This document shows positions 1 through 14,475 of a stretch of 58,412 nucleotides of DNA, in pieces; within the stretch, counting starts at the first letter, position 1; each line of letters opens with the position of its first letter. The stretch is from Crenobacter intestini (GTDB lineage: Bacteria > Pseudomonadota > Gammaproteobacteria > Burkholderiales > Chromobacteriaceae). The translations under genes were made by a program, and so were the position numbers. The DNA lies in the NCBI RefSeq assembly GCF_004919095.1, contig NZ_STGJ01000020.1:1-58412 (forward strand). Direction: 5' to 3'. A model generated the notes under the pieces. It ran no database searches. It had not been told where the DNA came from and saw only the letters and a list, made by a program, of their open reading frames with translations.

Positions 1-75
1 ATCCGGGCATGAGCAAACCTGCCTCAGCCCGCTACAAGACAACAAACTGGGCGAGTATGATGCCGCGCTCAAAGC
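1..75 (+). mobile_element. Relic of an IS5-family element (5' end of transposase)
   Basis: Bases 1 to about 75 match the start of the intact IS transposase at 49807-49885: both begin with the same residues (MSKPAxARYKTTNWA) and share the nucleotides after it. This copy has scattered substitutions and a one-base deletion near base 52 that shifts the frame, and similarity stops near base 75. The left end of the element would lie outside the window. It is a decayed fragment and cannot encode transposase. It lies in the same orientation as the complete copy. Confidence 0.8.
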
Positions 76-197
76 AGTATTCTGATGGCGTGAATAGTTC
101 AGACGGCGCAGATGCAAACGCTGCATGTCCCTTCCAACACGCTGCTCTCAGCGTATTTCAGACAAAAGCATCAGGCACGCTAGAAACGAAAATCGGC

Positions 198-785
198 CTA
201 GCATTCCAATGCTGCGAAGTGCTGCCGTACCCATTGCTCACAGCGTTCCCATAGCGCAGGTGCCCCCCGCTGGATGGTGGGGCCGTAGCGTTCCAGTACC
301 TGCTCCAGAGTGACGTTATTTTCTGTCCAGGTTCCCCCGCCGGTGCGGACATTGATCAATAGTGGCTGCACCCGATCCAGTGCCTTGGCAAATTTCGCAT
401 CGGCAGAGATGCCTTGCTCGAACTCCCGCCACAGTGCCAACAGCTCAGGTCCCTGCGCCCCCGGGATCATGCCGAACAGCCGCTTGGCCGCCAGCTCTTC
501 CTGCGCGGCCTGTAACGTAGCCGAAGGCATCTGGTGGATAGGCATGTCGCCAACGTCAACCTCGACAATGTCGTGGATCAACAGCATCTGGATCACCCGC
601 GACAGGTCGGCCTGCTCGTCTGCATAGTCCTTCAACAGCAAGGCATACATCGCCAGGTGCCAGGAGTGCTCGGCACTGTTCTCCTTGCGGCGACCATCCA
701 GCAGCGGCGACTGGCGGATCACGTTCTTCAGTTGATCAATCTCGCACAGGAAGGCGAGTTGCTGGTCCAAGCGGCTGGTGGGCAT
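198..785 (-). CDS. YfbR-like HD-domain phosphohydrolase
   Basis: A soluble protein of about 195 aa with a complete HD metal-binding set. Numbered from the ATG at 785: H40 in a SAEHSWH motif, H71-D72 in LLIHDIVEVD, then E75, D80 and a late D137. This order and spacing resemble YfbR, a 5'-deoxynucleotidase that removes phosphate from dNMPs; activity here is inferred. An in-frame TTG at 797 is an alternative start, and neither start has a good ribosome binding site. It is the last gene of the hsdR-hsdS-hsdM-small ORF run, 37 bases after its neighbour, so it is probably cotranscribed with the restriction system. Nucleotide metabolism or an accessory defence role are both possible. Confidence 0.85.
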   Translation of the reverse strand: MPTSRLDQQLAFLCEIDQLKNVIRQSPLLDGRRKENSAEHSWHLAMYALLLKDYADEQADLSRVIQMLLIHDIVEVDVGDMPIHQMPSATLQAAQEELAAKRLFGMIPGAQGPELLALWREFEQGISADAKFAKALDRVQPLLINVRTGGGTWTENNVTLEQVLERYGPTIQRGAPALWERCEQWVRQHFAALEC

Positions 786-822
786 GTGTGGTTTCAAGTT
801 ATTGAGATGAAAACGGACAGCC

Positions 823-1122
823 CTATGCCTTCAACCTCTGGCTAACCGGCAGGTCATCGTGCGAGGCGCGGTCGTATCGCTCCACGCGAACAACCTCAAG
901 CTCGGTGGCGGCCCCGTGGCGCTTTTGCATGATGGGTGCCATCGCCTTGGCGAAGCGATGGGCTAGCAACTCGTTGGACAGAAATGCTCCCTTCTCGCAG
1001 CCACAGATCCGCGTCGACGCCGACAGGTACGCCGCTCCTTGCATCAGCAGGGCGGCGGCAGGGCCACGTGGGTTCGGCGTATGGATGGCGACCATCCAAC
1101 CAAGCAGACGGCGGGTCGGCAT
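823..1122 (-). CDS. Small hypothetical protein between hsdM and the HD gene
   Basis: A 99-aa frame starts five bases beyond the hsdM stop (ATG at 1122) and ends 37 bases before the HD gene, which fits an operon position. The product has no signal peptide or membrane segment. It contains two cysteines in an ICGCEKGAF stretch and a helical middle (AHRFAKAMAPIMQKRHG). I do not recognise a family. The alternative start is the ATG at 1095. Amino acid composition and the tight spacing argue for a real gene, but no known domain confirms it. Confidence 0.5.
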   Translation of the reverse strand: MPTRRLLGWMVAIHTPNPRGPAAALLMQGAAYLSASTRICGCEKGAFLSNELLAHRFAKAMAPIMQKRHGAATELEVVRVERYDRASHDDLPVSQRLKA

Positions 1123-1126
1123 CCGT

Positions 1127-2587
1127 CTAGCGCCCCGGCAGCGCGGCGGCCACGTCGCGAAAGGCAGCCAGCGCGGCCTCCAGGTGTTCGATGATTTCCT
1201 GCTGCAACACGTCGGGCGGCGGCAGGTCATCGAGGTTGTCCAGGCTATCATCCTTCAGCCAGAAGACATCCAGGCTCGCCTTGTCGCGGGCAACCAGCTC
1301 ATCGTAGCTGTAGTACTTGAAGCGCTCGGTCTCGTGACGCTCATGGCGGTTGGCCGGGTGGTAGCACGCGATGAAGTCCTGCAGGTCGTCAAACTTGAGC
1401 GGACGCGTCTTCAGCGTGAAGTGCTTGTTGGTGCGCAGGTCGTAGAACCAGACCCCCTTGGTGTGCACATGGCCATCCTTGGGCGCGTTGTCGAAGAACA
1501 CCACATTGGCCTTGACCCCTTGCGCGTAGAAGATGCCGGTCGGCAGGCGCAAGATGGTGTGCACATCGCAGGTTTCCAGCAGCTTGCGGCGGATCTTCTC
1601 GCCGGCCCCCCCTTCAAACAGCACGTTGTCGGGCAACACCACGGCTGCCTGGCCGTTCACCTTCAGCATGCTGACGATGTGCTGCAGGAAGTTAAGCTGC
1701 TTGTTTGACGTGGTCTCCCAGAAGTCCTGCCGCTGGTAGACCAGTGCTTCTTTGTCCTCTTCACCCTCTTCGTTGGTGATGAGCATGCTGCTTTTCTTGC
1801 CGAAAGGCGGGTTGGCCAGCACGTAATCGACCTTGCGCGCAGGCTCGGCAATCAACGCGTCCGAACGCTCCACCGAAGGCTCGCCCTCCAGTTCTCCGAT
1901 GTTGTGCAGGAACAGGTTCATCAGGCACAGCCGGCGCGTATTGGGAACGATCTCGTTGCCGTAGAAGGTCTGGTCGCGCAGGAATTCCTTCTGCCGTTTG
2001 TCGAGGCGGGTACCGGGGCGGGTCAGCCAGTGGTACGCCCCCAGGAAAAAGCCGCCGGTCCCGCAAGCCGGGTCGGCGATGGTCTTCATCGGCTCGGGCT
2101 GTACGCAGGTTACCATCGCCTCGATCAGCGGACGCGGGGTGAAGTACTGGCCGGCGCCGCTCTTGGTGTCTTCGGCGTTCTTCTGCAGCAGCCCCTCGTA
2201 CAGGTCGCCCTTGGTGTCCGCGTCCAGGCTGATCCAGTTTTCGGCGTCGATCATCTGCACCAGCCGGTGCAGCTTGGCCGGGTCCTGGATCTTGTTCTGC
2301 GCCTTGAAGAAGATCGCGCCCAGCATGCCATCCTGCTGGCCGAGCTGATAGAGGGTCGCCAGGTAGTGCGCCTCCAGCGGCTCACCGGAGCGGGCCACCA
2401 GGTTGGGCCAATCGTAGCCGGCCGGAATGCGGGTATTGCGGCTGTACGGCGGCTGGGCGTATTCGTGCGCCAGCTTCAGGAACAGCAGGTAGGTCAGCTG
2501 CTCCAGATAGTCGCCGTAACCGACACCGTCGTCGCGCAGGGTGTGGCAGAAGTTCCAGACTTTCTGGACCAGGGAAGAGGTATTCAT
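1127..2587 (-). CDS. hsdM: Type I restriction-modification system, methyltransferase subunit HsdM
   Basis: A 486-aa N6-adenine methyltransferase subunit. An N-terminal helical region (residues 1-130, as in HsdM_N) precedes the S-adenosylmethionine-binding core. Visible motifs are GAGQYFTPRPLIEAM (about 144-158), the SAM loop DPACGTGGF (172-180) and the catalytic NPPFG (259-263). With HsdS it would methylate the host recognition site, and with HsdR as well it forms the cleaving complex. It lies 78 bases after hsdS in the unusual order R-S-M. Length and motifs look intact. Confidence 0.97.
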   Translation of the reverse strand: MNTSSLVQKVWNFCHTLRDDGVGYGDYLEQLTYLLFLKLAHEYAQPPYSRNTRIPAGYDWPNLVARSGEPLEAHYLATLYQLGQQDGMLGAIFFKAQNKIQDPAKLHRLVQMIDAENWISLDADTKGDLYEGLLQKNAEDTKSGAGQYFTPRPLIEAMVTCVQPEPMKTIADPACGTGGFFLGAYHWLTRPGTRLDKRQKEFLRDQTFYGNEIVPNTRRLCLMNLFLHNIGELEGEPSVERSDALIAEPARKVDYVLANPPFGKKSSMLITNEEGEEDKEALVYQRQDFWETTSNKQLNFLQHIVSMLKVNGQAAVVLPDNVLFEGGAGEKIRRKLLETCDVHTILRLPTGIFYAQGVKANVVFFDNAPKDGHVHTKGVWFYDLRTNKHFTLKTRPLKFDDLQDFIACYHPANRHERHETERFKYYSYDELVARDKASLDVFWLKDDSLDNLDDLPPPDVLQQEIIEHLEAALAAFRDVAAALPGR

Positions 2588-2665
2588 GGGGTCATCCTGA
2601 ATTTTGGGTGAACGCGGTCACCTGCTTGCCCGTCACCGGCCGGCGACGGACACACGCAGCAATTT

Positions 2666-4234
2666 TTAGGCGGTCTTGGCCCTGCGCCCGCGCGGCTTCT
2701 TCACTGCCGCCTGTTCGGCGCGCACGGCACGGATGCGCGCCAACAACACGCTGGCAGGCTCGTCGTTCGGGTCCTGCGGCACCAGTTCGCCGGCGAAGGC
2801 AGCACGCAGGATGTTTTGGCGTTGGGCGGAGGCTTGCTTGATGGAAATCTCCGCCGCCTGAACTTGATCCGCTGCCGCGCTAAGTTGCTCCTCCAGCAAC
2901 TCAGAAATGACATGTTGTTCAGCTTCTGGAGGTAGGGGAACTGGAGTCCGTTTAACGTCCTGTTGATTAATGCTGGCTTGATTAACAGCCCATTTGGAAT
3001 CACGAATTAGCCTGTTACGCCCAACATCTGATCCTAAGTAGTGAGAAACGTAACCTCCAGAGACTGAGCTAGCCAAGCTAAATCGCATCATATTAGACTC
3101 AAAAAGAACACCATTAAGAACCTTCCCAACCAGCAAAGATTTACCAAGGTGCGTCATGCTGTTCACACGGTTGATGACTAGATCGCCAGCAACTAGTGAG
3201 TAAGTATTTTTTGTTTCTTCATCGGCATCAACGAGATTCAGATCAGATTTATTGCGACACCAACCTATCTGGTAATCGTCGATACGTAGGATTGGCACTC
3301 CAAAACCATAGCGGCTTGCGGGTAAGTACAAACCATTTTGAGGACCATCACTGATCAAAGAATCTAAGCTCGCCCACACCCACCCTTCCGGCAGCGCCGG
3401 CAGGCCGGTGGTGTCCGGGGTGACGGGTTCGGGGTACTTCTGTTGCCAGTTCTTGGGTGGGGTCTTGCCTTGCTCGGCAAACTTGGCCAATTGCCTGGCT
3501 TCCCAACGGGCGCGGCGCTCGCTGAGGATGCGCGCCAGCAGTTGCTCGCCGCTCTCGCTGACCGTGTGCTGCGCTCGCCAGTCGGCGGTGAGCGCCCCTT
3601 CGACGGCCGCCTTGAGCAGCGACTGGCGGTATTGCGCCAACTTCTGCTGCGCGGCCTTGAGCTCGGCCACGCCGGCGTCGAGGTCGGACAGCAGCTCTTC
3701 GAGCTTGGCGACGATGCGGGTTTGTTCTGGCAAGGGACACAGTCGCGCCTTGAGAGTTCGTATCTTCGTGAGATTGACGCGAGGTCGTGTCGTGCCTTTG
3801 GTTTGCCCCTTAAACTGTTCAACCATGTATTCGGCATTGATCTGATAGCAAAGGTAATCACGATCAATCCACGGATGCGTCAGGCGGGCACGAACAACGT
3901 CTGCAACCAGAACGCCTCTCGGAATGCTACTCGGAGCAAGGCACGCTTTTCCAAGTGGGTCGCCCAGCTTCGTGATGAGGATGTCGCCCGGTGCAAATGT
4001 ATGGCGAGCCAACTCCTCAGCCTTGTGGTCGGTTACATACTGAATGTTTTTGGCGATGAACCGATTCCGATCAATGTTTTGCAGCCGCGCAATTGGAATA
4101 CCCGCAGAGACATACTCGCTTGCCTTGAGGTTCGAGCCAAATGGGCCATCAACGATGTCGTCGCCGGGCTGCGAGAACAAATCCCCGAACTCCAGCTCAA
4201 TCCATCCGTGTGGCAATTCTTGATTCTCACTCAC
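2666..4234 (-). CDS. hsdS: Type I restriction-modification system, specificity subunit HsdS
   Basis: A 522-aa DNA-recognition subunit. It has two target recognition domains (roughly residues 10-165 and 285-435), each followed by a helical spacer: the first after PLPEQTRIVAKLEELLSDLD, the second after PLPPEAEQHVISELLEEQL. A basic tail (KKPRGRRAKTA) closes the protein. The start codon overlaps the hsdR stop as ATGA, so translation is coupled. Recognition domain 2 (about 2880-3370) is visibly AT-richer than its surroundings, as expected when these domains are exchanged between strains. The target sequence cannot be read from the protein. Confidence 0.95.
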   Translation of the reverse strand: MSENQELPHGWIELEFGDLFSQPGDDIVDGPFGSNLKASEYVSAGIPIARLQNIDRNRFIAKNIQYVTDHKAEELARHTFAPGDILITKLGDPLGKACLAPSSIPRGVLVADVVRARLTHPWIDRDYLCYQINAEYMVEQFKGQTKGTTRPRVNLTKIRTLKARLCPLPEQTRIVAKLEELLSDLDAGVAELKAAQQKLAQYRQSLLKAAVEGALTADWRAQHTVSESGEQLLARILSERRARWEARQLAKFAEQGKTPPKNWQQKYPEPVTPDTTGLPALPEGWVWASLDSLISDGPQNGLYLPASRYGFGVPILRIDDYQIGWCRNKSDLNLVDADEETKNTYSLVAGDLVINRVNSMTHLGKSLLVGKVLNGVLFESNMMRFSLASSVSGGYVSHYLGSDVGRNRLIRDSKWAVNQASINQQDVKRTPVPLPPEAEQHVISELLEEQLSAAADQVQAAEISIKQASAQRQNILRAAFAGELVPQDPNDEPASVLLARIRAVRAEQAAVKKPRGRRAKTA

Positions 4235-7011
4235 GCGACCAACTCCATATTCATTTCATTCATTAGCGTATCCAGTTCTGTGCCGAACAGTCCCCACGCC
4301 TTCTGCAAGCCGCCCTTGTCCGCCAGTTCGGCGTAATCAAAATCGTCTCGGCTGATGCTGCAACTGCTGGCGATATGGTCTTTCATGCTGCGCAGCCAGT
4401 CGGTCTGCTCCGGTGTGAACGAAGTGCCGCGCTGCGCGTTGTGGCGGAAGATCCACGCCTGGAAGCGGCGGTCTACCTCGTCGGCAAACGGTTTCAATTC
4501 GCCGTCAAGCCCTAGCGCGAAGCGCACCAGCGACACCAGGTCGGTCAGCTGGCGCTTGCGGTCGGCGCCTTTCACCTGCGCGGCCTGCACCCGGGCGTAC
4601 GCGCTCCACAGCCGTTCGCTGGTGAGCATCAGCGGGGGTTTGCTCAGGTGTTCGTGCAGCGCTTCGAGCATGTCGAAGGTGAGTGCACGGCGCTGGTAGG
4701 GCTGCTGGTAGAAAAAGCCGAGTGCGGCGATTTCGTCCTTGTGCTGTTGCAGAGTGTCGGCGAACTGCTGGATCGTGGCGCGGGCCTGCGCTTCGGCCTG
4801 CTGGGAGAACCCCGAGAAGGTTAACGTATCGGGGTTGGTATGGTCGATGATCTGCTCGCGCTCACGGCGAGCATTTTCAATCTCTTCACGCAGTTGCGGC
4901 GCGTCGAACGGCTCGCATGCCGCCGCGACCCGCTCGGCACGGGCGGTGGCAATTTCTTCCGGCAACAAGGTGTCTTCGCTGCGGCTGATGCCCTGCGCTT
5001 TGGCGGTGGCCAGCGCAGTCTCAATGATGGCGTCCGGGTTGAGCGCGCTGATCAGCCCCTTGCCCAGTTCGGCAACCGGAATGCCCTGGCTCGCCTGTGC
5101 GATCCGGGCCTGCGCCTTGGCGTCCAACTGCTTGGCCAGCCTGATCAAGCGGTTGCCCAGGCTCAGCACAGTGTCGTCGTCGCGGCTGCCCATGGCGACG
5201 CCTTGCAGAAGGTCTTTCAGCGCCACGCCAGGTTTTTTCTCCAGCGGGCGACTTTCGGTCTTCAGCGATTTCTCCACACCTACCGCGTCAATCAGCACGA
5301 AACGGGTCTTGGCACCGTCCGCCTTGCCGCTGACACGCTTCAAGCCATCTGCGTCCAGGCTGCGCACTCCGCGCCCCTTCATCTGTTCGTAGTAGCCCCT
5401 GGAGCGCACGTCGCGCATGAACAGCAGCACTTCCAGCGGTTTGACGTCGGTGCCAGTGGCGATCATGTCCACCGTCACCGCGATGCGCGGGTGGTAGTCG
5501 TTACGGAAACTGGCCAGCACGCCGTCGGCGTCTTTTTCGCTGTACGTCACCTTGCGGCAGAAGGCGTTACCCTGGCTGTAGACCTCGCGCACGATGTTGA
5601 TGATGTCGTCTGCGTGACTATCTGTCTTGGCGAAGATCAGGGTCTTGGGTACTTCGTTGTCGCGTGCCGGGAAGATCTGCGTTTCCACCGCCGTTTTCAT
5701 GGCCTGGATCACCTGCCGGATCTGGCTTGGGTTGACCACCGAACGGTCCAGCTCCTTGCCGCTGTAGACGACGTCTTCGTCGACTTCTGCCCAGCGCTTC
5801 TTGCGGGTAGCGCGGTCGCGATGATCCACCCATTCGCGGGCCTTGAGTTCGGCGCCCTTACGGGTGACCTCGGTTTCGATCTCCCACACGTCGTAACCGA
5901 CGTTGACACCATCCACCACCGATTGCTCGTAGGTGTATTCAGCGACGATGTTTTCGTTGAAGAAGCCGTAGGTGCGCTTGTCCGGCGTTGCCGTCAGCCC
6001 GATCAGCTTGGCGTCGAAGTAGTCGAGCACCTGCTTCCACAGGTTGTAAATGCTGCGGTGGCACTCGTCGATCACGATGAAGTCGAATGTCTCCACCGGT
6101 ACCGCCGGGTTGTATCGGACGAACTTTTCCTGCTTGGCTGTTTGCTGCACTTCGTTGAGCGACATATCTTCGGCCGACTCGTCGATCGGCTCGCCACTCA
6201 GAATGGCGTACATACGCTGGATGGTGCTGATGCACACTTGCGCGTGTGGGTCGATGTTGGGGGAAGCCAGTTGCTGCACGGCGTAGAGCTCGGTGAACTT
6301 GCGATGGTCGTCCGGTGGGGTGTACGCCATGAACTCCTGATGCGCCTGCTTGCCCAGGTTGCGGGTATCGACCAGGAACAGGATGCGCTTGGCACCGGCG
6401 AACTTGAGTAGGCGGTACACCGCGGTGATGGCGGTGAAGGTCTTGCCGGCCCCCGTGGCCATATGCACCAACGCGCGGGGCTTGTTCTGCGCCAGCGATT
6501 TCTCCAGGCCGGTGACCGCGCTGATCTGGCAATCGCGCAGCTTGCTGGTGGGCAAGGCCGGCATCTGCTCGGCCAAGCGGCGACGCAAGGTTTGAGCTTG
6601 CCGTAGCCACCCCTGTAGCGTTTCAGGCTTGAAGAAATGAAACAGCTCGCGTGAGCGCGGGAGCGGGTCGGCGTTATCGGTAAAGCGAATGACCTGGCCC
6701 GTTGCCTCGAACAGGAAGCGCAAAGGGGTATCGTCCTTGCGCCATTTCAGGCTGGACGCCGCGTAGCGCTCTGTCTGGCTCTCGGTCGCCGTCAGGTTCT
6801 CGCCAGCCGTATCCTTCTTGGCCTCGATGACCCCCACGGCTTCACGGCCCACAAACAGCACGTAGTCAGCCGGCCCGCTGTCGGTCGGGTACTCGCGAAT
6901 GGCGACGCCTACACCGGCAGACAGGTTGAATTCCTTCATGTCCTGGATGACCCAGCCGGCTTGTTGCAGCCGCTCGTCAATGTACTGCCGTGCTTTGGCT
7001 TCAGGCGTCAC
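4231..7011 (-). CDS. hsdR: Type I restriction enzyme, translocase/endonuclease subunit HsdR (EcoEI-like)
   Basis: A 926-aa restriction subunit. Numbered from the GTG start, the nuclease motif is GPADYVLF (46-53) plus VIEAKK (61-66). The SF2 motor follows with Walker A ATGAGKT (185-191), DECH (315-318), GLTATP, and a TGTDVKPLEVLLF/GRGVR helicase C part; the C-terminal third resembles the EcoEI_R_C region. I chose GTG at 7011 because homologues begin near VTPEAKARQYIDERL and a GGAAAGGT ribosome binding site lies at 7018-7025; the longer ATG frame from 7089 adds 26 atypical residues. It is first in the operon and overlaps hsdS by four bases. Confidence 0.95.
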   Translation of the reverse strand: MTPEAKARQYIDERLQQAGWVIQDMKEFNLSAGVGVAIREYPTDSGPADYVLFVGREAVGVIEAKKDTAGENLTATESQTERYAASSLKWRKDDTPLRFLFEATGQVIRFTDNADPLPRSRELFHFFKPETLQGWLRQAQTLRRRLAEQMPALPTSKLRDCQISAVTGLEKSLAQNKPRALVHMATGAGKTFTAITAVYRLLKFAGAKRILFLVDTRNLGKQAHQEFMAYTPPDDHRKFTELYAVQQLASPNIDPHAQVCISTIQRMYAILSGEPIDESAEDMSLNEVQQTAKQEKFVRYNPAVPVETFDFIVIDECHRSIYNLWKQVLDYFDAKLIGLTATPDKRTYGFFNENIVAEYTYEQSVVDGVNVGYDVWEIETEVTRKGAELKAREWVDHRDRATRKKRWAEVDEDVVYSGKELDRSVVNPSQIRQVIQAMKTAVETQIFPARDNEVPKTLIFAKTDSHADDIINIVREVYSQGNAFCRKVTYSEKDADGVLASFRNDYHPRIAVTVDMIATGTDVKPLEVLLFMRDVRSRGYYEQMKGRGVRSLDADGLKRVSGKADGAKTRFVLIDAVGVEKSLKTESRPLEKKPGVALKDLLQGVAMGSRDDDTVLSLGNRLIRLAKQLDAKAQARIAQASQGIPVAELGKGLISALNPDAIIETALATAKAQGISRSEDTLLPEEIATARAERVAAACEPFDAPQLREEIENARREREQIIDHTNPDTLTFSGFSQQAEAQARATIQQFADTLQQHKDEIAALGFFYQQPYQRRALTFDMLEALHEHLSKPPLMLTSERLWSAYARVQAAQVKGADRKRQLTDLVSLVRFALGLDGELKPFADEVDRRFQAWIFRHNAQRGTSFTPEQTDWLRSMKDHIASSCSISRDDFDYAELADKGGLQKAWGLFGTELDTLMNEMNMELVA

Positions 7012-7166
7012 GCGATGACCTTTCCGTGCTGAATGCCACACAGTCAGAGTGAACGGGTGGCCGCGATGATGTAACCAATCTAGGGTCATAGATGGTACCT
7101 CAAGATGGACATCATCAATAATGACATTGGTTTTTTCGTCGTCGACTTAACGCAAGGAAAATCCAC

Positions 7167-7397
7167 ATGAGGGCAGTGATACTCAGCCTGTGCACCGAAC
7201 TGGCCTGGCTGCTGCTCGGCGCGCTTCCATTCCTGCTGACTGCCTGGTGGATCTACGGGCCAGACCCGCTCGACGTTCTGCTGGGCAGCTTTGTGCTGAT
7301 GATGTTGCTCTTAATGCCATTGCTGGCGCTGCTCGCCCTCAGCAGTCTGCTGGGCTGCATCTTTGCACGGCAGGTGCACGGGTTAGGGCAGTGGTGA
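7167..7397 (+). CDS. Small hydrophobic membrane protein, unknown function
   Basis: A 76-aa protein, transcribed divergently from hsdR. It is almost wholly hydrophobic, with about two membrane segments (ILSLCTELAWLLLGALPFLL and VLLGSFVLMMLLLMPLLALL). An AAGGAAAA ribosome binding site sits seven bases before the ATG, which supports it as real. No family recognised. Its stop overlaps the start of a 29-codon frame (TGATG). Confidence 0.55.
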   Translation: MRAVILSLCTELAWLLLGALPFLLTAWWIYGPDPLDVLLGSFVLMMLLLMPLLALLALSSLLGCIFARQVHGLGQW

Positions 7398-7486
7398 TGA
7401 AAGCCATTCTTTCCTTATTACAGTTCTGTGCAAGGCTTAAAGCCTGGGCGCTTTTAAGCGGCCGTCGTCATCGCGACACACTCTAG
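7397..7486 (+). CDS. Possible 29-aa peptide coupled to the small membrane protein
   Basis: A 29-codon frame starts within the stop of the preceding gene (TGATG overlap), so it could be translated by coupling. It begins MKAILSLLQFCARLKAW and ends in a basic tail (SGRRHRDTL), an amphipathic pattern. There is no independent ribosome binding site. It may be spurious. Confidence 0.25.
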   Translation: MKAILSLLQFCARLKAWALLSGRRHRDTL

Positions 7487-7651
7487 TCGCCACTTTGCAG
7501 AGGCAGCGCAGCCTTGATTTTTGCTACTGCGGCTAGGCTCACGCTTCGGGTGGCTTTGAGAAATTGTCGAGGTATGATGCCTATGCTGCCCCTTGTAGCG
7601 TAATGCGTTAACCTAGTGAAGTCGCCATGCAGAGTAGGAAGGAATCGATTG

Positions 7652-7990
7652 ATGTTGCCACCTGATACGCCACGAACTAACGAACAAATCGAAGTTGAGA
7701 TTGCTAAATTACAGGCCGAGTTGAGGGAGCGAAAACAAAAGGAAAGGAAAGACGCGCTTGTGATGATCAAACCGTTGATCGTCCAATACCAATTCACTCT
7801 CAAAGAGCTTGGGCTGGACTCTGGTGAAGCTCCTGCGGCCATGAAGACAAAGGCTACTCCAGGGATGACTTACCAAAACCCTAAGAATCCAGATCAAATT
7901 TGGAAAGGCCATGGTCGTCAGCCAAAGTGGATAAAAGATGAACTCTCAGCAGGCAAGACGATGAAAGATTTGGAGGCGAAGCAGTCATAA
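7652..7990 (+). CDS. H-NS-family nucleoid/silencing protein
   Basis: A 112-aa H-NS-like DNA-binding protein. Residues about 10-50 are a charged helical oligomerisation region (EQIEVEIAKLQAELRERKQK), then a linker. The C-terminal DNA-binding motif is YQNPKNPDQIWKGHGRQPKWI (about 74-94), which matches the W-x-G-x-GR-x-P loop that inserts into AT-rich minor grooves. I chose the ATG at 7652 because AGGAAGGA precedes it by seven bases; longer upstream starts lack this. It stands at the edge of the AT-rich island, so local silencing of transferred DNA is plausible. It is shorter than classical H-NS and could also act as a modulator. Confidence 0.9.
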   Translation: MLPPDTPRTNEQIEVEIAKLQAELRERKQKERKDALVMIKPLIVQYQFTLKELGLDSGEAPAAMKTKATPGMTYQNPKNPDQIWKGHGRQPKWIKDELSAGKTMKDLEAKQS

Positions 7991-8016
7991 CTGTCCACCT
8001 CTTCATCTTAGATTAG

Positions 8017-8673
8017 TTAGGCCCGGCTGGCACCAAATCCATGGCTTCCATCCCCATAGACTTTGGTGTCTGCCTTGCAGAGATAGCTGGTTCTGTAGAA
8101 AAAATCTGCCTGGCTGTCTCTATCATCACGTCGCAGCCTATAACAGGCATTACGTGGTATCTCTACCAGTCCTCTCACTTCCCCTACGTGCAAGCACAAT
8201 GCACTTGCCCAAGCCTCTTCTAGCCTATGGAACATGTTTCTGCTTTCAGAGCAGAAGTTTCCTAATGTGCAGAATGCGTCATTGTTCAGCAGAATTGCTA
8301 TGTGGTAATGCGGATTTCTCTCCTCGCTAAACTCTCTTGCCCAGACGTATCTTACGTTGCTGTCATGAGCGTATGGACGCTCCTGACGTACCTTGTGTCG
8401 ATTGTGTCGTATCTTTGCTTTGAACGATTCGATAAATCGTTCCATTACAATGTTGGTCAGAAATGAATTGTGAATTAGAATTCCTGTCGGAAGTCTTAAG
8501 TCAACCCGAAAGGCAAATGTACGAGGATGTTGATTGATAGAGTTGACCATTGTCTGGTATAGGCGTTCCAGATAGTTGCGTATGAATGGTCCTTTTTCTG
8601 TCTGGATAGGAAGTCCCTTGTAAGCGTGCTCGTAATGAAGAATCAGATTTGTGTTGTGTGGGTGGCGAATCAT
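8017..8673 (-). CDS. Inovirus Gp2 / YagK-YfjJ-type HUH protein
   Basis: A 218-aa protein of the family found in inovirus genomes (Gp2) and in the E. coli prophage genes yagK and yfjJ. The diagnostic stretch is RYVWAREFSEERNPHYHIAIL (residues about 108-127), which contains the His-hydrophobic-His pair (H122, H124) of HUH endonucleases. A role in rolling-circle replication of the element is likely by family but unproven here. A GGAG site lies about eight bases before the ATG. It is transcribed with alpA behind it, as is common in P4-like or satellite elements. Confidence 0.8.
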   Translation of the reverse strand: MIRHPHNTNLILHYEHAYKGLPIQTEKGPFIRNYLERLYQTMVNSINQHPRTFAFRVDLRLPTGILIHNSFLTNIVMERFIESFKAKIRHNRHKVRQERPYAHDSNVRYVWAREFSEERNPHYHIAILLNNDAFCTLGNFCSESRNMFHRLEEAWASALCLHVGEVRGLVEIPRNACYRLRRDDRDSQADFFYRTSYLCKADTKVYGDGSHGFGASRA

Positions 8674-8790
8674 GTTTGTACTCCAGTGGTGATGTTCATA
8701 TGTTCACCTAGCTGGGTAATTTTTGACTGATAACGATAGGTGTAGTTTTTGTTTCTAGAATGTAATCGATAATCCATTTAGTAGTGTTGT

Positions 8791-9009
8791 TTAGTGCCGT
8801 GAGTATGTCTTGTGTCTATATATTACCAATACAGAAAGAAAGCGTATTGCGGTCTTGGTTATTTGTACTTGAATAGTTCGGTAGGACTTCAGATTTTTCT
8901 GTTGTTTCTGGTCTGGAAAATTATCATTGCCGGTTGGTAATCGATCGTGACGATTAGGCAGGGTAATGGGTTGTAAATGTAATGGTGTTGTTTCATTTGT
9001 TTCTTTCAT
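8791..9009 (-). CDS. Doubtful small ORF after alpA
   Basis: A 72-codon frame begins three bases after the alpA stop and ends about 120 bases before the HUH gene. It is polar and basic, with no recognisable domain and no ribosome binding site. Its position between two cotranscribed genes is the only support. Confidence 0.3.
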   Translation of the reverse strand: MKETNETTPLHLQPITLPNRHDRLPTGNDNFPDQKQQKNLKSYRTIQVQITKTAIRFLSVLVIYRHKTYSRH

Positions 9010-9012
9010 TGG

Positions 9013-9201
9013 TTATGTGGTTGAGTCCCTTTCTTCAACTTTTCTCATGATCCAATCCAGAATTTCGCTCTCCAGCCAACCGACACAGCGATCACCTAGT
9101 GGAATTGGCTTTGGAAACGTTCCTTGTGAAATGAACTTGTAGATGGTAGATCGTGCCAGGCCTGTAGCATTCATTACCTGATCTAAGCGATAGATTTTCA
9201 T
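9013..9201 (-). CDS. alpA: AlpA-family transcriptional regulator / excisionase-like
   Basis: A 62-aa MerR-like helix-turn-helix protein: MKIYRLDQVMNATGLARST continues into IYKFISQGTFPKPI and GWLESEILDWI, the classical AlpA layout. The start at 9201 is supported by an AAGGAG site seven bases upstream. AlpA proteins activate integrase or act as directionality factors in P4-like elements. No integrase is present in this window, so its target is unknown. Predicted first gene of a unit running into the HUH protein. Confidence 0.9.
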   Translation of the reverse strand: MKIYRLDQVMNATGLARSTIYKFISQGTFPKPIPLGDRCVGWLESEILDWIMRKVEERDSTT

Positions 9202-9713
9202 GGCAAGCTCCTTACGTTGAGTCATGTAAGGTGGGGGGGTGATATTTTTTAAACTTTAATGGCTCGGAACGTTAGTCTTCTTTCATCTGGTGACAAAAAG
9301 AATAAGTGAGCAAGAGGCCTTGTGGTCTTCCGCTATTTGGTAGCTATGTGAGAGGTAAGATCACATCGTTTCTATCGAGGTGAATGATCTGTTTGAGGGG
9401 CGCTTTGGTGGCTCGGCAGCGGGAGAGCACTGCTTGAAGGTTGGCGATAGTTCACCCTGGGGTTGACTCAAGGCGGGCATCGCCTGATGGTCTGCCGTGT
9501 GTCCGCGCTGTAAACCTTGCAAGGTCATGTGGCATCGTGGGGGTTATCGCCGTGCTGAGCCTGCCACAGCGCAAATTTCCTGTACTAGGAAGCATGTAAA
9601 ACCATGTACAAATGCATCAGTATTTAGTGTAGATTTCTACTAGAAGTACTCGTGTTATCATTTGCATGTTGTGATAACTAAATGCGGAGTATGTTTAATT
9701 AACTGGGACGGGT
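9202..9713. other. 512-base intergenic region between divergent island genes
   Basis: Separates alpA (minus) from the MatP-like gene (plus), so it should hold both promoters. Its right half is AT-rich and has several short palindromes: GTAG-ATTT-CTAC near 9630-9641 and a longer inverted repeat at 9654-9678. The left half (about 9370-9590) is GC-richer and shows no gene. A replication origin for the element could lie here, but nothing proves it. Confidence 0.6.
9654..9678. promoter_or_regulatory. Inverted repeat GTTATCA-N11-TGATAAC, candidate operator
   Basis: A perfect 7-bp inverted repeat with an 11-base spacer, ending 36 bases before the start of the MatP-like gene. Half-site spacing of about 18 bases fits a dimeric DNA-binding protein contacting one helix face. 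Autoregulation by the downstream ribbon-helix-helix protein is inference. It is not the E. coli matS consensus. Confidence 0.5.
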
Positions 9714-10577
9714 ATGGCTGTTAATTTCTCTAAAGATGCGTTGTCTAAAGTCTTGCAAGAAACGGCACGTAGCAAGCGCCTTGATACGTGGTTGTGGTTC
9801 TACTTGGAATGTCGTGGTGCGAATCTAGATCAGGGCTATTTTTACGCTTCTGGAATGAGGGATTATATGGCAGCTCGCATCACTAGTATGCCAGGGATGG
9901 CTGATGAAATTAATGGTATGTTAGGTATTAATTTCTTGCCTAGAGAGATGCTGGAATGGATAGGTGAAAGTGAAAGGCAGTGTCAGTGGTTGGTGTCATT
10001 TTTGAGTAGTCATAAAAGTAATTTGTTGACGAATCCTCCTGTTCGTTTGCTAAATAGGGATTTGGTTGTAGCAATGATTGATATGTTGGGATTGGATGTT
10101 TTAAGCAAAAAAACGGTTGTTGATTTGATGAGGTGTGCTTGGGTTGAGCACATAAAAAATGATGGTGCTTTGCTTTGGTTTAAAGGTGACAGTGAAGAGG
10201 ATAAGTGTGAGTTGGCCTCGAGATGGATCATGAAAAATGATGGGGATGGCTCAGCGTTTCAGATTAATCCAATTCGAACTCATCAAGAGTTATTGATGTA
10301 TTTTGACCGGTTTAAGTTTAGCGATGATAGGAAGTTGCTTTGTCTTTCTGCAGTTAAAAAGAGTTGGAGTCAGAAGAAGTATCGAGGGAATTTAAATGGT
10401 AAAAAGCAACACAATTTTATTTTGACGGACAAGGCTATTAATCGTCTTGATAAGTTGGCAAAAAAGCATGACTTAAAGCGGGTGGATGTTCTTGAGATTC
10501 TTCTGCAAATGGAGTCTGAAAAGAATTTGTACATAGCAGAAAAGATGAAAATTTTTAAAGGGCTAGAGGAGTTGTGA
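9714..10577 (+). CDS. Unknown island protein with MatP-like C-terminal DNA-binding region
   Basis: A 287-aa soluble protein with no family match that I can name for residues 1-220. Residues about 229-287 resemble the C-terminus of MatP: a basic lead-in (KKYRGNLNGKKQ), a ribbon-helix-helix (strand HNFILT, helices AINRLDKLAKKH and KRVDVLEILLQME), then a short coiled coil (EKNLYIAEKMKIFKGLEEL). In MatP this part binds matS sites and tetramerises. The long N-terminus may be a separate helical domain. The gene is AT-rich, monocistronic and opposite in direction to alpA. A role in DNA binding or segregation of the element is inferred. Confidence 0.7.
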   Translation: MAVNFSKDALSKVLQETARSKRLDTWLWFYLECRGANLDQGYFYASGMRDYMAARITSMPGMADEINGMLGINFLPREMLEWIGESERQCQWLVSFLSSHKSNLLTNPPVRLLNRDLVVAMIDMLGLDVLSKKTVVDLMRCAWVEHIKNDGALLWFKGDSEEDKCELASRWIMKNDGDGSAFQINPIRTHQELLMYFDRFKFSDDRKLLCLSAVKKSWSQKKYRGNLNGKKQHNFILTDKAINRLDKLAKKHDLKRVDVLEILLQMESEKNLYIAEKMKIFKGLEEL

Positions 10578-11239
10578 TTATTTGTGAATAATGCCTGTAT
10601 GCTGGCTTCAAATCTTTTCGAGAACTGTAATAATGCTTGTTGGTATGTGAAGTATTGTAAATTATTGAACGATAAATTGGAGTGTGGCTCTCTCGAAAAC
10701 AATCAGACATGAAGCAATTTAAGGTGAAGTTTTTCTCATAATTTTAAGATGTTTTCAACAATTAATTGATAGATTTTAGTGTGCTGCATTGTGCTATATT
10801 GTCGATCGTTTCTGTTTTGCGTAAATAATTTTAAATCACGGTTATTGCTGGAAGATATCGGCACGGTGCAATGCGGAGTGAGGCTATTTTTTGAAAGAAT
10901 CTGAGTGGGTTTTGCGCGAAGTAATTGTGGGTTTTTGGCAGAAAGTAGAGAGGTAATTCGTGGGGCTTTGCGGCGTTAAGTTGCGGAATTAATTGGCATT
11001 TCGAAAGCCTTTTGTTGACCAGTCCTGACTGAGATGCGCTGATTGATTAGCCTGTTTTTTTCCGAAGCTTGGCGAGCTAGTTGTCCAAGATGTACGACAC
11101 AATCGGTTGCTTTTGCACGCTTTTGATAGCTGGCATTATCAATGCTGCCTTGCCTTAGGGATTGGTGCAGACGTAGTGCGAACGAGCTGAGAATGCCAGA
11201 CCATGAATGGTGCTGCAGATCCAGGGGAATTGTTAGGAA
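10578..11239. other. 660-base AT-rich stretch without a convincing gene
   Basis: No frame with a ribosome binding site or recognisable product was found on either strand. It contains a 9-bp inverted repeat at 10615/10691 and a short direct repeat (GTGCTGCATTGTGCTATATTG near 10780-10800). It probably holds degraded island DNA, and it ends in a decayed transposase. Confidence 0.6.
10615..10699. repeat. Long-spaced inverted repeat downstream of the MatP-like gene
   Basis: TTTTCGAGA at 10615-10623 pairs with TCTCGAAAA at 10691-10699, enclosing 67 AT-rich bases. It begins about 38 bases after the stop codon. It may form an extended stem in RNA or mark binding sites for a dimer. It lacks a T-run directly after the stem and so is not a classical terminator. 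Confidence 0.45.
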
Positions 11240-11580
11240 CGATGCAGGTGCATAAGGCTACCGACACCAAATGGACGAGAATGGCAAGCAGACCTTCGAC
11301 TGTAAGCATTCGGTGTTGACTAACTGCCGTTATAAGCTGATCCGCACCGTGCTTGTCAGCCCGGCCAACGAAGACGACCTGCCCTATCAACGAGTAGGGG
11401 CTCGACCGGAGCGATGCGATACCAGCCGGGATCTGTATGCGACCGTGACTACTCCACGTGGGACATCCCCAATGTGTGCGGTTGGCGGGAACACATCCAG
11501 CGCAGCGCAAAGCCGAAGCAGGCATTACTGACCTACAACCACAAGCGGATATGCAGACGGAAGGACAGTAGGGTGACCGA
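11240..11580 (+). pseudogene. Decayed IS5-family transposase fragment
   Basis: Short segments in successive frames recall the middle of IS5/ISL2-type transposases. First ATDTKWT; then, after a frameshift, DENGKQTFDCKHSVLTN and YKLIRTVLVSPANEDD; after another shift, DRDYSTWDIPNVCGW and a basic REHIQRSAKPKQ tail. Catalytic order is lost and both ends are missing. No terminal repeats were found. It marks an old insertion at the edge of the island. Confidence 0.5.
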
Positions 11581-11812
11581 TTCCTGATGCACAAAGAGTG
11601 TCCGCAGCCTGCGAAATACGGGCTTTAGAGGCAATGCTGCAGCTTCTTGGGCGATAGCGGCGTCAGATTGTTGCCTGCTGATAGAATTATTAAACCGGGT
11701 ATGTAGTCGGGTTTTTTTATGCTTTGTATAATTTAATGCATTGATAAATAAGGTAAATATCAACATTTTCCTGTTCAACGTCTAAGCCGCGCCGCTTGGC
11801 GGGCCACGCAAG

Positions 11813-11836
11813 AACCACCCTCACGGGTGGTTTTTT
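11813..11836 (+). terminator. Rho-independent terminator
   Basis: An AACCACCC stem (11813-11820) with loop TCAC, a matching GGGTGGTT and then a T-run. It has no intact gene directly upstream and may be what remains of a unit disrupted by the island. It insulates the transporter genes that start at 11951. Bases 11581-11812 show nothing else. Confidence 0.75.
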
Positions 11837-11950
11837 CGTATCTGCATGTCGCGTTTGACCGGGTTCGGGTGCTGGAGGGCGCACGGTCGTTTTGTTATAT
11901 TTCGCTTTCGCAAATATTTGCGACTGCAAATAACTAACAGATATAAAGAT

Positions 11951-12739
11951 ATGACCATGAAACGACTGATTCCCATCCTGCTCTCCGCCTTGCTGGCCGG
12001 CCAGACCCTCGCCGCCGACCTGATCGACACCGTCCGCCAGCGGGGCACGCTGAAGATCGCGCTGGAAGGTACCTACCCGCCGTTCAACTACCGCGAAGGC
12101 AAGACGCTGACCGGCTTCGAGGTCGAACTCGGCCAGGAACTCGCGCGCCGGCTCGGTGTGCGTCCCGAATTCGTCACCGGCGAATGGAGCGGCCTGCTCG
12201 CCGGCCTGCAAGGCGGCAAGTTCGACGTGGTGATGAACCAGGTCGCGGTCAACGAGGCGCGAGCGCGCGTGTTCGACTTCAGCCGCCCGTACACCATCTC
12301 CAGCGCGCAACTGGTGGTGCGTAAAAACGAAACGCGCACTCTATCGGGTGCCAACCTCAAGGGCACCAAGGTCGGCGTCGGCCAGGGCAGCAACTACGCG
12401 GACCTTGCACGCAGGCTGGACGGGGTCGAGGTCAAGGTCTACCCGGGCGCGCCCGAGTACCTGCAGGATCTGGCCAGCGGCCGCATCGACGCCGCGCTCA
12501 ACGACAGCCTGCTGATCCCGTTCGCGATCCGCGAGTCGCGCCTGCCGCTGAAGGCCGGCGCGCCGGTCGGCAGCACGGCGACGATGGCGATCCCGTTCGC
12601 CAAGGGCAACCCGGGCTTCAAGCGCGCGATCGACCAGGCGCTGTTGGCGATGCAGCAGGACGGCAGTTTCGCCCGCATCTCGAACAAGTGGTTCGGCCAG
12701 GACGTATCGCAGCCGCCGGCCGCGCGCAAGGCCGACTAA
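11951..12739 (+). CDS. Polar amino acid ABC transporter, periplasmic binding protein
   Basis: A 262-aa protein of the family 3 solute-binding type (FliY/TcyJ/GlnH-like). A signal peptide is clear (MKRLIPILLSALLAGQTLAA), then the mature start DLIDTVRQRGTLKIALEGTYPPFNYR, which is the classic first strand of these proteins. The rest (GFEVELGQELARRLGV, FDVVMNQVAVNEAR) fits a full two-lobe fold. An ATG at 11957 is an equally good start. It is followed 37 bases later by a permease. Cystine or another polar amino acid is the likely ligand; specificity cannot be read from sequence. Confidence 0.9.
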   Translation: MTMKRLIPILLSALLAGQTLAADLIDTVRQRGTLKIALEGTYPPFNYREGKTLTGFEVELGQELARRLGVRPEFVTGEWSGLLAGLQGGKFDVVMNQVAVNEARARVFDFSRPYTISSAQLVVRKNETRTLSGANLKGTKVGVGQGSNYADLARRLDGVEVKVYPGAPEYLQDLASGRIDAALNDSLLIPFAIRESRLPLKAGAPVGSTATMAIPFAKGNPGFKRAIDQALLAMQQDGSFARISNKWFGQDVSQPPAARKAD

Positions 12740-12776
12740 TCTCAAAGCGCCCGGGCCCTGACGAAAGGATGCGTGG

Positions 12777-13439
12777 ATGCCCCTGACCGAACTCATGGAA
12801 CTGGCGTGGCCGATGCTGTTGCAAGGCACGTTCTACACGCTTGTTTTCGCCTTCTCGAGCATGGTGCTCGGCCTTGCGCTGGGCTTCTTGGTCGCCTTGC
12901 TGCGCGTCGCGCGCGTGCCGGTACTGGGGGCGGTCGCGACCTTCTACGTCAGCCTGATGCGCGGCACGCCGCTCTTGGTGCAGATCTTCGTGATCTACTA
13001 CGGCCTGCCGTCGGCCGGCGTCGAGTTCGACCCGGTGACGGCGGGGGTACTGGCGCTGACGCTGAACGTCGCCGCCTACCTGTCCGAGAGCATGCGCGGC
13101 GCGATCGCCGGCGTCGGCGCCGGGCAGTGGGCGGCCGCCCGTTCGCTGGGGTTCACCTGGTGGCAGGGCATGCGCTTCATCATCGCGCCGCAGGCGCTGC
13201 GGCTGGCGGTGCCTAGCCTGTCCAACAGCCTGATCTCGCTGATCAAGGATACCTCGCTGGTCTCGGTGATCACCGTCAGCGAGCTGATGCTGTCGACCAA
13301 GGAGCTGATCGCGCAGACCTTCGAGCCGCTGCCGCTCTACCTGATGGCCGCGCTGATCTACTGGGCGCTGTGCGGCGCGTTCGAGCTGGCGCAGCGCTAC
13401 CTCGAGCGGCGGCTCGCCTTGCCCGGCCACCGTCAGTGA
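12777..13439 (+). CDS. Polar amino acid ABC transporter, permease
   Basis: A 220-aa HisMQ-type inner-membrane permease with about five membrane segments. The ATPase-docking EAA loop is seen as QWAAARSLGFTWWQGMRFIIAPQALR. An AAAGGA site precedes the start by seven bases. It forms a unit with the binding protein before it, but no ATP-binding gene follows: the next gene is an unrelated binding protein 82 bases on. The transporter must use an ATPase encoded elsewhere or be incomplete. Confidence 0.93.
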   Translation: MPLTELMELAWPMLLQGTFYTLVFAFSSMVLGLALGFLVALLRVARVPVLGAVATFYVSLMRGTPLLVQIFVIYYGLPSAGVEFDPVTAGVLALTLNVAAYLSESMRGAIAGVGAGQWAAARSLGFTWWQGMRFIIAPQALRLAVPSLSNSLISLIKDTSLVSVITVSELMLSTKELIAQTFEPLPLYLMAALIYWALCGAFELAQRYLERRLALPGHRQ

Positions 13440-13521
13440 TGGCACAGATTGGGCAATGACCATGCTATAGGCATTGTTTTTGGCGTTAGAATGTCGGCTC
13501 GAACGACTTTCTGCGCCGCCC

Positions 13522-14475
13522 ATGCGTCCGTTGACCCGCCGCGTCTTCCTGTCTGCCCCGCTCGCCCTCGCGACGGCCGCGTGCGCGCGGCCGCAACCGC
13601 CGCTGGTGGTCGCGACCAACCGCTGGATCGGCTACGAACCCTTCTACATTGCCCGCGAACTTGAAGCCTACCCTGGACGGGCGCCGCACTTGGTCGAGTA
13701 CGGCTCGGCGTCCGAGGTGGTGCGTGCGCTCGCCAGCGGGGTGATCGACGCGGGTGCGCTGACGCTGGACGAAGCGCTGCAGCTGATGCAGCACAACCCG
13801 GATTTCGCGGTCGGCCTGGTCCTCGACGAATCGTTCGGCGCCGACGCGCTGGTCGCCTCCGGCGGCCTGAAGTCGCCCGCCGCACTGCGCGGTCGGCGCG
13901 TCGGCGCCGACAGCCTGGCGCTCGGCGCCTTCATGCTGGGGCGCGCGCTGCAATACGGCGGCCTCGCGCCATCCGACGTGAAGCTCGTCCATGTCTCCTA
14001 CGAAGCACAACTCGAGGCGCTGGATGCCGGCGAGGTCGACGCGCTGGTGACTTTCGAGCCGGTGCTGGGGCAGCTGACGGCGCGCGGCGCGCGCGTGCTG
14101 TTCGACAGCAGCGACATTCCCGGCGAAGTCGTCGACGTGCTGGTGGTCCGCCAGCAGGCGCTGGCCGACCGCGACGGGCGGCTGGCCGCCTTGCTGCAGG
14201 GCTGGTTTGCCGGGCGTGACGCGCTATTGGGCAGCGAGCCTGCCGCGCTGGCGGCAGTCAGCGCGCGCCAGCAGATCGCGCCCGACGAGGTCAAGCCGGC
14301 CTTGCAGCAGTTGCGCTTTCCCAGCCTGCAAGAAAACCGGCACCGCTTCGCCGAAAAGACCACGCTGCTTGAATCGATGCGCCGCATGCACGCGCTGCTG
14401 GCAGGCTTCGGCCTGGTGGAGGGCGCGCCGCCGGGCGCTCGGCAGATCGTGTCGTTGCCGGAGGTCCTTGCATGA
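13522..14475 (+). CDS. Substrate-binding (NMT1/SsuA-like) lipoprotein coupled to a c-di-GMP enzyme
   Basis: A 317-aa periplasmic binding protein of the NrtA/SsuA/ThiY fold: TNRWIGYEPFYIARE, LASGVIDAGALTLDEALQL and VDALVTFEPVL are its hallmarks. The N-terminus has a twin-arginine-like TRRVFLSA and a lipobox ending at C21 (ATAAC), so it is probably a lipoprotein. No permease or ATPase follows. Instead its stop overlaps the next start by four bases (ATGA), and that gene is a membrane PAS-GGDEF-EAL protein. A sensory rather than transport role is therefore likely, comparable in logic to NspS-MbaA of Vibrio cholerae. Ligand unknown. Confidence 0.85.
   Translation: MRPLTRRVFLSAPLALATAACARPQPPLVVATNRWIGYEPFYIARELEAYPGRAPHLVEYGSASEVVRALASGVIDAGALTLDEALQLMQHNPDFAVGLVLDESFGADALVASGGLKSPAALRGRRVGADSLALGAFMLGRALQYGGLAPSDVKLVHVSYEAQLEALDAGEVDALVTFEPVLGQLTARGARVLFDSSDIPGEVVDVLVVRQQALADRDGRLAALLQGWFAGRDALLGSEPAALAAVSARQQIAPDEVKPALQQLRFPSLQENRHRFAEKTTLLESMRRMHALLAGFGLVEGAPPGARQIVSLPEVLA

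Follow-up and report, generated by a model that had tools for sequence, protein, structure and literature searches.

The gene at positions 9714-10577 (+ strand) of a stretch of Crenobacter intestini DNA that we analysed as a whole (58,412 nucleotides, hereafter the window) is preceded by an array of degenerate 11-bp units, and among relatives the sequence type of such arrays follows the protein encoded by this gene rather than the neighbouring AlpA. The array is a new finding of this analysis. With a probability of roughly 0.6 we read the 287-amino-acid product, which belongs to an unnamed family, as an array-binding protein that regulates its own gene in genomic islands of the integrase/AlpA/Gp2 type, a reading drawn from sequence comparison that would have N-terminal helical repeats followed by what is probably a C-terminal ribbon-helix-helix (RHH). 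The open reading frame is intact, and both it and its translation are as given in an earlier note on this DNA, which took the product for a MatP-like DNA organiser carried by a mobile island. The part of that interpretation that stands is a mobile-island protein that probably binds DNA through an RHH; the MatP-like organiser does not.

Arrays were first spotted by eye upstream of close relatives of the gene, and a matrix was then built from them (56 units from eight loci, 3-9 per locus, delimited by hand), which was used leave-one-out and judged against dinucleotide shuffles. Within the last 200 bp before the gene, these eight loci hold 8 pairs of CTAG at a spacing of 11 bp, compared with a shuffle mean of 0.05 and a maximum of 2 in 300 shuffles; the only other spacings from 4 to 35 bp that yielded pairs were 22 (3), 33 (3) and 26 bp (1). 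Autocorrelation over the close loci reached z values of 9.2, 6.4 and 5.6 at lags of 11, 22 and 33, the 300-shuffle maximum at any lag being 3.9, and under leave-one-out scoring none of 500 shuffles reached the score of any of the 8 defining loci. In the window the array of CTAGA-type units spans 9585-9661 (+): two CTAG units lie exactly 55 bp (5 x 11) from each other and enclose further units in the same register (9585-9650), and a weaker unit follows. Scored with a matrix trained without the window, it was reached by 0 of 500 shuffles, ranked first among 116,694 positions for six units and 14th among 116,760 for three, and came first solely at period 11 when periods of 8-14 were tried. It is so degenerate that autocorrelation of the window locus alone does not make it visible (z 0.1), and it also escaped simple counts of repeated k-mers. 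The earlier note had suggested 9602-9713 as a DNA target, and the array at about 9585-9661 supports that region as a candidate. In the window the DNA ahead of the gene gave no sigma-70-like promoter, and inverted repeats, as judged by eye, are apparently not common to the loci. Downstream of the gene, at 10727-10781 (-), there may be a second, weaker array of the same type on the opposite strand, whose score 8-10 of 500 shuffles reach; it might be a site close to the end of the island.

We relied on shuffles and not on ranks, since some AT-rich regions also come first with permuted matrices or at other periods. Permuted matrices placed AT-rich upstream DNA high in several loci (L017 at rank 1 with 29 of 40 matrices), L013, L015 and L017 also ranked first at one other period, and L007 ranked only third for six units. 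By the shuffle measure the array extends beyond the defining loci. It is evident at L041, where six CTA lie exactly 11 bp apart (0/500; start codon re-estimated by eye), and at the distant loci L044 and L048 (0/500 each); it is absent from the distant relatives L042, L046, L047 and L049, where 75, 258, 57 and 70 of 500 shuffles reached the score, and doubtful at the distant L094 (5/500). The distant group as a whole gave an autocorrelation of only z 2.3 at 11 bp. Apart from L041, the 500-shuffle test covered the eight defining and seven distant loci, L043, L045 and L050 not being among them, and L014 was excluded from the array counts as close to L007. Twenty-five of 29 further loci were reached by 0 of 300 shuffles, L102, L109 and L113 being counted here though their margins over the shuffles are small; L114, L118 and L121 were weaker (1, 13 and 11 of 300), and the fragment L120 carries no array (214/300). 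At L115 and L119 the array falls inside a predicted ORF whose start is uncertain. Once redundancy above 80% identity, whether with the defining loci or among the further loci themselves, had been removed, 20 of the 23 non-redundant loci outside the defining set beat all 300 shuffles. As controls we took the 300 bp upstream of mechanically called ORFs of at least 150 aa, some of which are not real genes; 2 of 120 such stretches beat all 100 shuffles, and 2 of 108 did so at a G+C below 52%.

The array lies about 30-170 bp from the predicted gene start in most of the 29 later loci, and the alpA start in the same loci varies from -29 to -1144, the smallest of these values being uncertain starts. 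Array type agreed with the type of this protein in 28 of 32 loci (the exceptions being L012, L013, L095 and L117), against 23 of 32 for agreement with the type that goes with the nearest AlpA; the boundary between types was set by hand. The clearest case is a pair of loci, L107 and L108, whose AlpA proteins are 98% alike over the aligned core and whose copies of the present protein are 34% alike; their arrays are of opposite type, and their DNA similarity spans alpA, stops about 35 bp past the alpA start and resumes only past the gene. In partial Mantel tests the array correlated with the RHH given AlpA (r 0.22, p 0.0015) more than with AlpA given the RHH (r 0.13, p 0.059), and it correlated more with N-terminal distance (0.46) than with RHH distance (0.31); this covariation test was run without L118, L120, L121, L122 and L123, and without L102, which had no AlpA hit. 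That the array type follows the protein and not AlpA, as at L107/L108 and in the Mantel tests, speaks for the array being this protein's own, and from these comparisons the protein is very probably what binds it. The agreement could partly be linkage, because array and gene travel together.

The setting in the window appears to be that of an island border. Divergent from the gene lies alpA (9013-9225, -; Phage_AlpA, PF05930, E 2.7e-21), and beyond it a gene for a Gp2/YagK-YfjJ_C protein, a relative of HUH-type replication proteins (8017-8673, -; PF11726, E 4.1e-45; the REP-type PF23343, E 2.1e-6). Both neighbours had been named in the earlier note, which placed the gene on a mobile island beside alpA and an HUH protein, and that placement is supported. 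G+C falls to 36-47% around 8500-11000, against 49-66% over 1-7500 and 66-71% over 12000-14000. From 11768 onwards the window is syntenic, at 94.7% identity, with G003, a genome from the same genus, which places the end of the island probably somewhere within 10577-11768; we infer from this synteny that alpA and the Gp2 gene mark the island end in the window. The contig begins inside or next to the island, whose other end may coincide with the first bases of the contig or fall outside it. None of the five integrase-domain matches in the Crenobacter intestini genome lies on this contig, and Rfam gave no match at gathering score over 7000-13000. Beside the island core stands a type I restriction-modification set (HsdM, HsdS and HsdR, 1127-7089), which is probably island cargo, and between it and the Gp2 gene lies an H-NS-like gene (7616-7990; Histone_HNS, E 5.4e-13), whose product is a possible island-borne silencer judging by this match. 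A stretch of about 430 bases at 11241-11673 has diverged copies (about 71-78%) on three further contigs of the source genome (C17, C19 and C44) and in G003, and its two longer ORFs belong to no Pfam family.

A survey of homologues and their neighbours placed the gene divergent from alpA and/or the Gp2 gene in 18 of 20 loci, with alpA within 2 kb upstream in 15 and a divergent Gp2 gene within about 1.2 kb in 14; L043 and L050 are the exceptions, and the count includes L006, L007 and L014, which encode the same or nearly the same protein. An additional Gp2-like ORF was seen by eye at L049, and at L041 the 4.6 kb of contig past alpA contain no gp2 gene. Among 29 later loci alpA is divergent upstream in 27. 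A convergent integrase gene lies just downstream in L012, L017, L048 and L050, and a tRNA-Ser or tRNA-Leu gene downstream in 5 of the 18 loci scanned (L009, L012, L015, L042 and L048), from which it appears that, where visible, the gene sits towards the integrase/tRNA end of AlpA/Gp2 islands. A yqaJ gene lies near the relatives in L006, L007, L017, L044 and L047. In the CP4-57 element of E. coli K-12, yfjH (L051:5145-6101, -) occupies the slot between intA and alpA that the gene fills in L012 and L017. Despite the shared slot YfjH proved unrelated (hhalign 0.05%), and the slot between integrase and alpA may host different regulators.

The full 287-aa protein matched no family in Pfam (E up to 1), NCBIfam or PADLOC, and its best PHROGs match had an E value of only 0.23, in keeping with the earlier remark that the first 220 residues are unlike known families. 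We found no publication on the protein in the open-licence literature to which our search was confined. Relatives, at about 26-39% identity, occur in 4 of 101 related genomes sampled (the source genome counted), on two Pseudomonas plasmids (three records), at five loci on Pseudomonas, Aquitalea and Neisseriaceae contigs and on a viral contig. Single-protein searches gave no relatives on genome contigs or viral contigs and only the source genome in the class sample (1 of 369), and phage records held no relatives. Profile searches matched one locus among viral contigs (L017), 12 of 398 genomes in the phylum sample (the source genome and L028 among them, the 137-aa L028 product being judged a different protein) and 53 of 298 genomes of one family, many of them over the C-terminus alone. 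In that family sample the C-terminal matches (e.g. profile positions 204-270) fall in frames of about 225-260 aa, and the RHH may be common to this protein and another kind that is shorter and has a different N-terminus. A DNA query from L045 matched 2 of 5,426 E. coli genomes, covering the whole gene in one of them (ET490); this relative and two on Klebsiella plasmids are annotated as 'hypothetical protein' and adjoin AlpA and inovirus Gp2 genes. Genome G005 carries two loci on separate contigs (L008 and L011), and the gene, alpA and gp2 are present at both in diverged copies. The family alignment was made without L028 and L050 (a 104-aa ORF), and without L006, L008, L010 and L011 as duplicates.

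The final 60 or so residues run from a basic helix through a short strand-like stretch into two successive helices, and several results, each weak on its own, suggest that the protein probably ends in an RHH (10407-10523, +; aa 232-270). When a profile of 17 relatives was searched against PDB sequences, a designed beta-alpha-alpha protein (E 0.0018) and CopG (E 0.005) were matched, and aldo-keto reductases returned by the same search at E 0.009 were taken as noise. Profile-profile comparison of the RHH part by hhalign gave 94% (score 41.3) with YbfE and 73% (score 29.2) with MatP_C, where 60 column-shuffled profiles reached at most 5% and 1.6%, respectively. Weak NCBIfam matches among the 17 relatives were to YbfE-type (9/17), RepA/CopB-type (8/17) and RepC_IncLM (6/17) models, and weak Pfam matches to RepB-RCR_reg (5/17) and RHH_1 (3/17, best 5.7e-5), none of these RHH-type matches reaching a curated cut-off where one was shown. 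AlphaFold placed helices at 239-251 and 256-270 behind an extended, low-confidence lead, in which DSSP assigned no strand, all models being monomers. In a Foldseek search with the C-terminal piece the first five ranks went to MazE-mt10 and CopG, and MatP came 11th (E 2.3), with no match at an E value below 1. By these comparisons the RHH is closer to YbfE/CopG-type proteins than to MatP. Behind it the tail is modelled as a helix at a pLDDT below 50, and a YxxE[KR] motif occurs in the tail of 7 of the 17 aligned pieces.

Ahead of the RHH, the N-terminus is built of tandem helical repeats of about 70 residues each. Repeat 1 (9957-10163, +; aa 82-150) and repeat 2 (10176-10394, +; aa 155-227), the last helix of which forms the basic lead-in to the RHH, are supported by the AlphaFold helices and by hhalign of profile residues 79-151 against 152-228 (96.8%, score 49.0; maximum of 60 column shuffles 15.9). 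Self-alignment of the N-terminus pairs residues 14-145 with 80-220, which hints at a third, decayed copy at the very N-terminus (9774-9932, +; aa 21-73); on its own this candidate matches repeat 1 weakly (22%) and repeat 2 not at all (0.5%). In the AlphaFold model, built on 7 sequences with a mean pLDDT of 78, the N-terminus is all-helical and was read as three helices per unit. A Foldseek search of the whole model against PDB and BFVD found nothing at E values up to 0.001; since the alignment behind the model is so shallow, we regard this as a hint of a new fold and not as proof of one.

Taken together, these features suggest how the protein might act. RHH dimers would bind side by side on the 11-bp repeats directly upstream of the gene, whose spacing amounts to about one helical turn and which number 3-9 units per locus, and the N-terminal helical repeats would probably join neighbouring dimers or recruit a partner. 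A filled array would cover the promoter and start region and so repress the gene, and might also set the divergent alpA and gp2 and through them excision and any Gp2-driven replication. By analogy with ParR, omega and StbA, autorepression is the expected outcome of array filling and we consider it likely, while action on alpA and gp2 is possible and stands at somewhat less than even odds. It is also possible, again by analogy, that the protein-array complex helps to retain the excised island. More tentatively, and with rather low confidence, protein and array may form a compact module that islands exchange separately from alpA. With it an island that has been excised and is replicated by Gp2 would sense its dosage and be inherited stably though no partition motor is at work, much as with StbA, but by means of an RHH joined to a new helical-repeat fold. 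To our knowledge, how integrase/AlpA/Gp2-type islands are switched on is poorly known, and a conserved, unnamed regulator with a predicted operator near alpA and gp2 offers a handle that comes down to a single gene and a single piece of DNA. L107 and L108, where protein and array have changed together next to an almost unaltered AlpA, are furthermore a ready-made specificity pair for RHH-DNA recognition.

Other explanations of the protein and its array were weighed against this one. Kinship with MatP, as the earlier note proposed from the order of the last 60 residues, would make the protein a MatP-like DNA organiser. The helix, strand-like stretch, helix, helix order did hold, and the alignment of the RHH part with MatP_C and the MatP chains in the Foldseek list speak for this idea. 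Against it, MatP_C is absent from the 16 Pfam families matched by any of the 17 relatives (E up to 10), the N-terminus scored 6% in hhalign against a profile of 19 MatP sequences (no detectable similarity), and the 20 Foldseek matches of the whole-protein model include no MatP chain. BLASTP against E. coli MatP likewise returned nothing meaningful (E 1.5, outside the RHH of MatP), and genome G615 already encodes its own MatP besides a relative of this protein. Because the profiles favour YbfE, no member matches MatP_C and the N-termini are dissimilar, membership of the MatP family does not hold, and a MatP-like organiser homologous to MatP strikes us as extremely improbable. MatP targets are spaced palindromic matS sites; the candidate target here is a single tandem 11-bp array clustered at the gene's own promoter. 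What the two proteins share is a helical N-terminal part followed by an RHH and a tail; the N-terminal domain of MatP is described as a four-helix bundle (PMC12756933), and the tail is not conserved within the present family.

The array might instead serve one of its neighbours. Phage 186 Apl and other Xis/Cox proteins fill rows of one-turn-spaced sites, and AlpA acting as an excisionase could do the same, the present protein being a separate regulator. The array does lie between the gene and an alpA that is divergent in most loci, and L046, L047 and L049, which lack a directly divergent alpA, show no clear array (L118 likewise, with a weak one). Nevertheless AlpAs that are 98% alike go with opposite arrays, L048 has an array though its alpA is on the gene's other side, L102 has one where no alpA was found, and the array keeps near the gene start as the alpA start wanders. 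The 3' side of the gene, moreover, has no array in seven close loci beyond weak signals at L015 (18/500) and L016 (17/500) and the 8-10/500 of the window, and we hold the excisionase explanation to be unlikely. We give little credence, too, to the array as origin iterons for the Gp2 HUH protein with the RHH protein as copy-number regulator of that replication. The nearby divergent Gp2 gene in 14 of 20 loci and the weak resemblance of the RHH to RepA/CopB, RepC_IncLM and RepB-RCR_reg models would fit, as would the binding of 11-bp repeats by pMV158-type RepB; L041, however, has an array and no gp2 within 4.6 kb past its alpA, and the alpA-gp2 gap, upstream of gp2, is without a significant array in 10 loci (lowest 20/500, at L009). 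A further possibility is that protein and array are a motor-less, centromere-like maintenance module for the excised island, as StbA and the stbDRs are for plasmid R388. The stbDRs, two sets of five 9-bp repeats with 2-bp spacers around the stb promoter, likewise have a period of 11, deletion of stbA leads to loss of R388, and StbB, its ParA-like partner, is not required for stability (PMC3098194, in the part available). RHH centromere proteins such as ParR and omega also bind promoter-overlapping iterons and repress (PMC5016525, in part). Integrated islands need no partition, however, and an unsystematic look at ORFs and annotations around the loci turned up neither ParA nor ParM; maintenance as the module's own role seems improbable to us. 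The self-regulating array binder remains our preferred reading.

Compared with known systems, the nearest RHH sequences by profile are YbfE (a LexA-regulated RHH protein), CopG and RepA-CopB regulators, with scores below the curated cut-off where one is shown; at 97 and 45 aa, YbfE and CopG are small proteins with no N-terminal repeats. The repeats bound by R1 ParR are 11 bp long. In organisation the present system is close to ParR/parC and omega/parS, in which an RHH protein fills tandem iterons overlapping its own promoter and represses as an assembled complex, with one ParR dimer per iteron; for ParR, 10-bp repeats are mentioned (PMC5016525). Tandem iterons at the RHH gene's own promoter are present here as well and are missing in several distant relatives. 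The present protein differs from ParR and omega in that its RHH is C-terminal, behind a long helical-repeat domain, and in that no motor gene was noticed in the same unsystematic look and the gene is instead linked to alpA and gp2. StbA and the stbDRs share with it an 11-bp period (9 + 2) around the promoter of their own operon on a mobile element (PMC3098194), a likeness of repeat period and position; the stbDR repeat sequence differs (TTGCATCAT), and R388 is a plasmid with a conjugation system. The genomic setting recalls the Pseudomonas IntY/AlpA/Gp2/YqaJ islands I23, I44 and I55, which are inserted at tmRNA genes with alpA and a Gp2-like gene at one end and yqaJ in the core. One island of this type moves with a jumbo phage, and integrase/AlpA/Gp2-type islands carry defence systems and other cargo; the available sections of that description mention neither this protein nor the array (PMC12595487). 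As in those islands, alpA and a Gp2 gene adjoin the gene described here, and yqaJ lies near five of its relatives.
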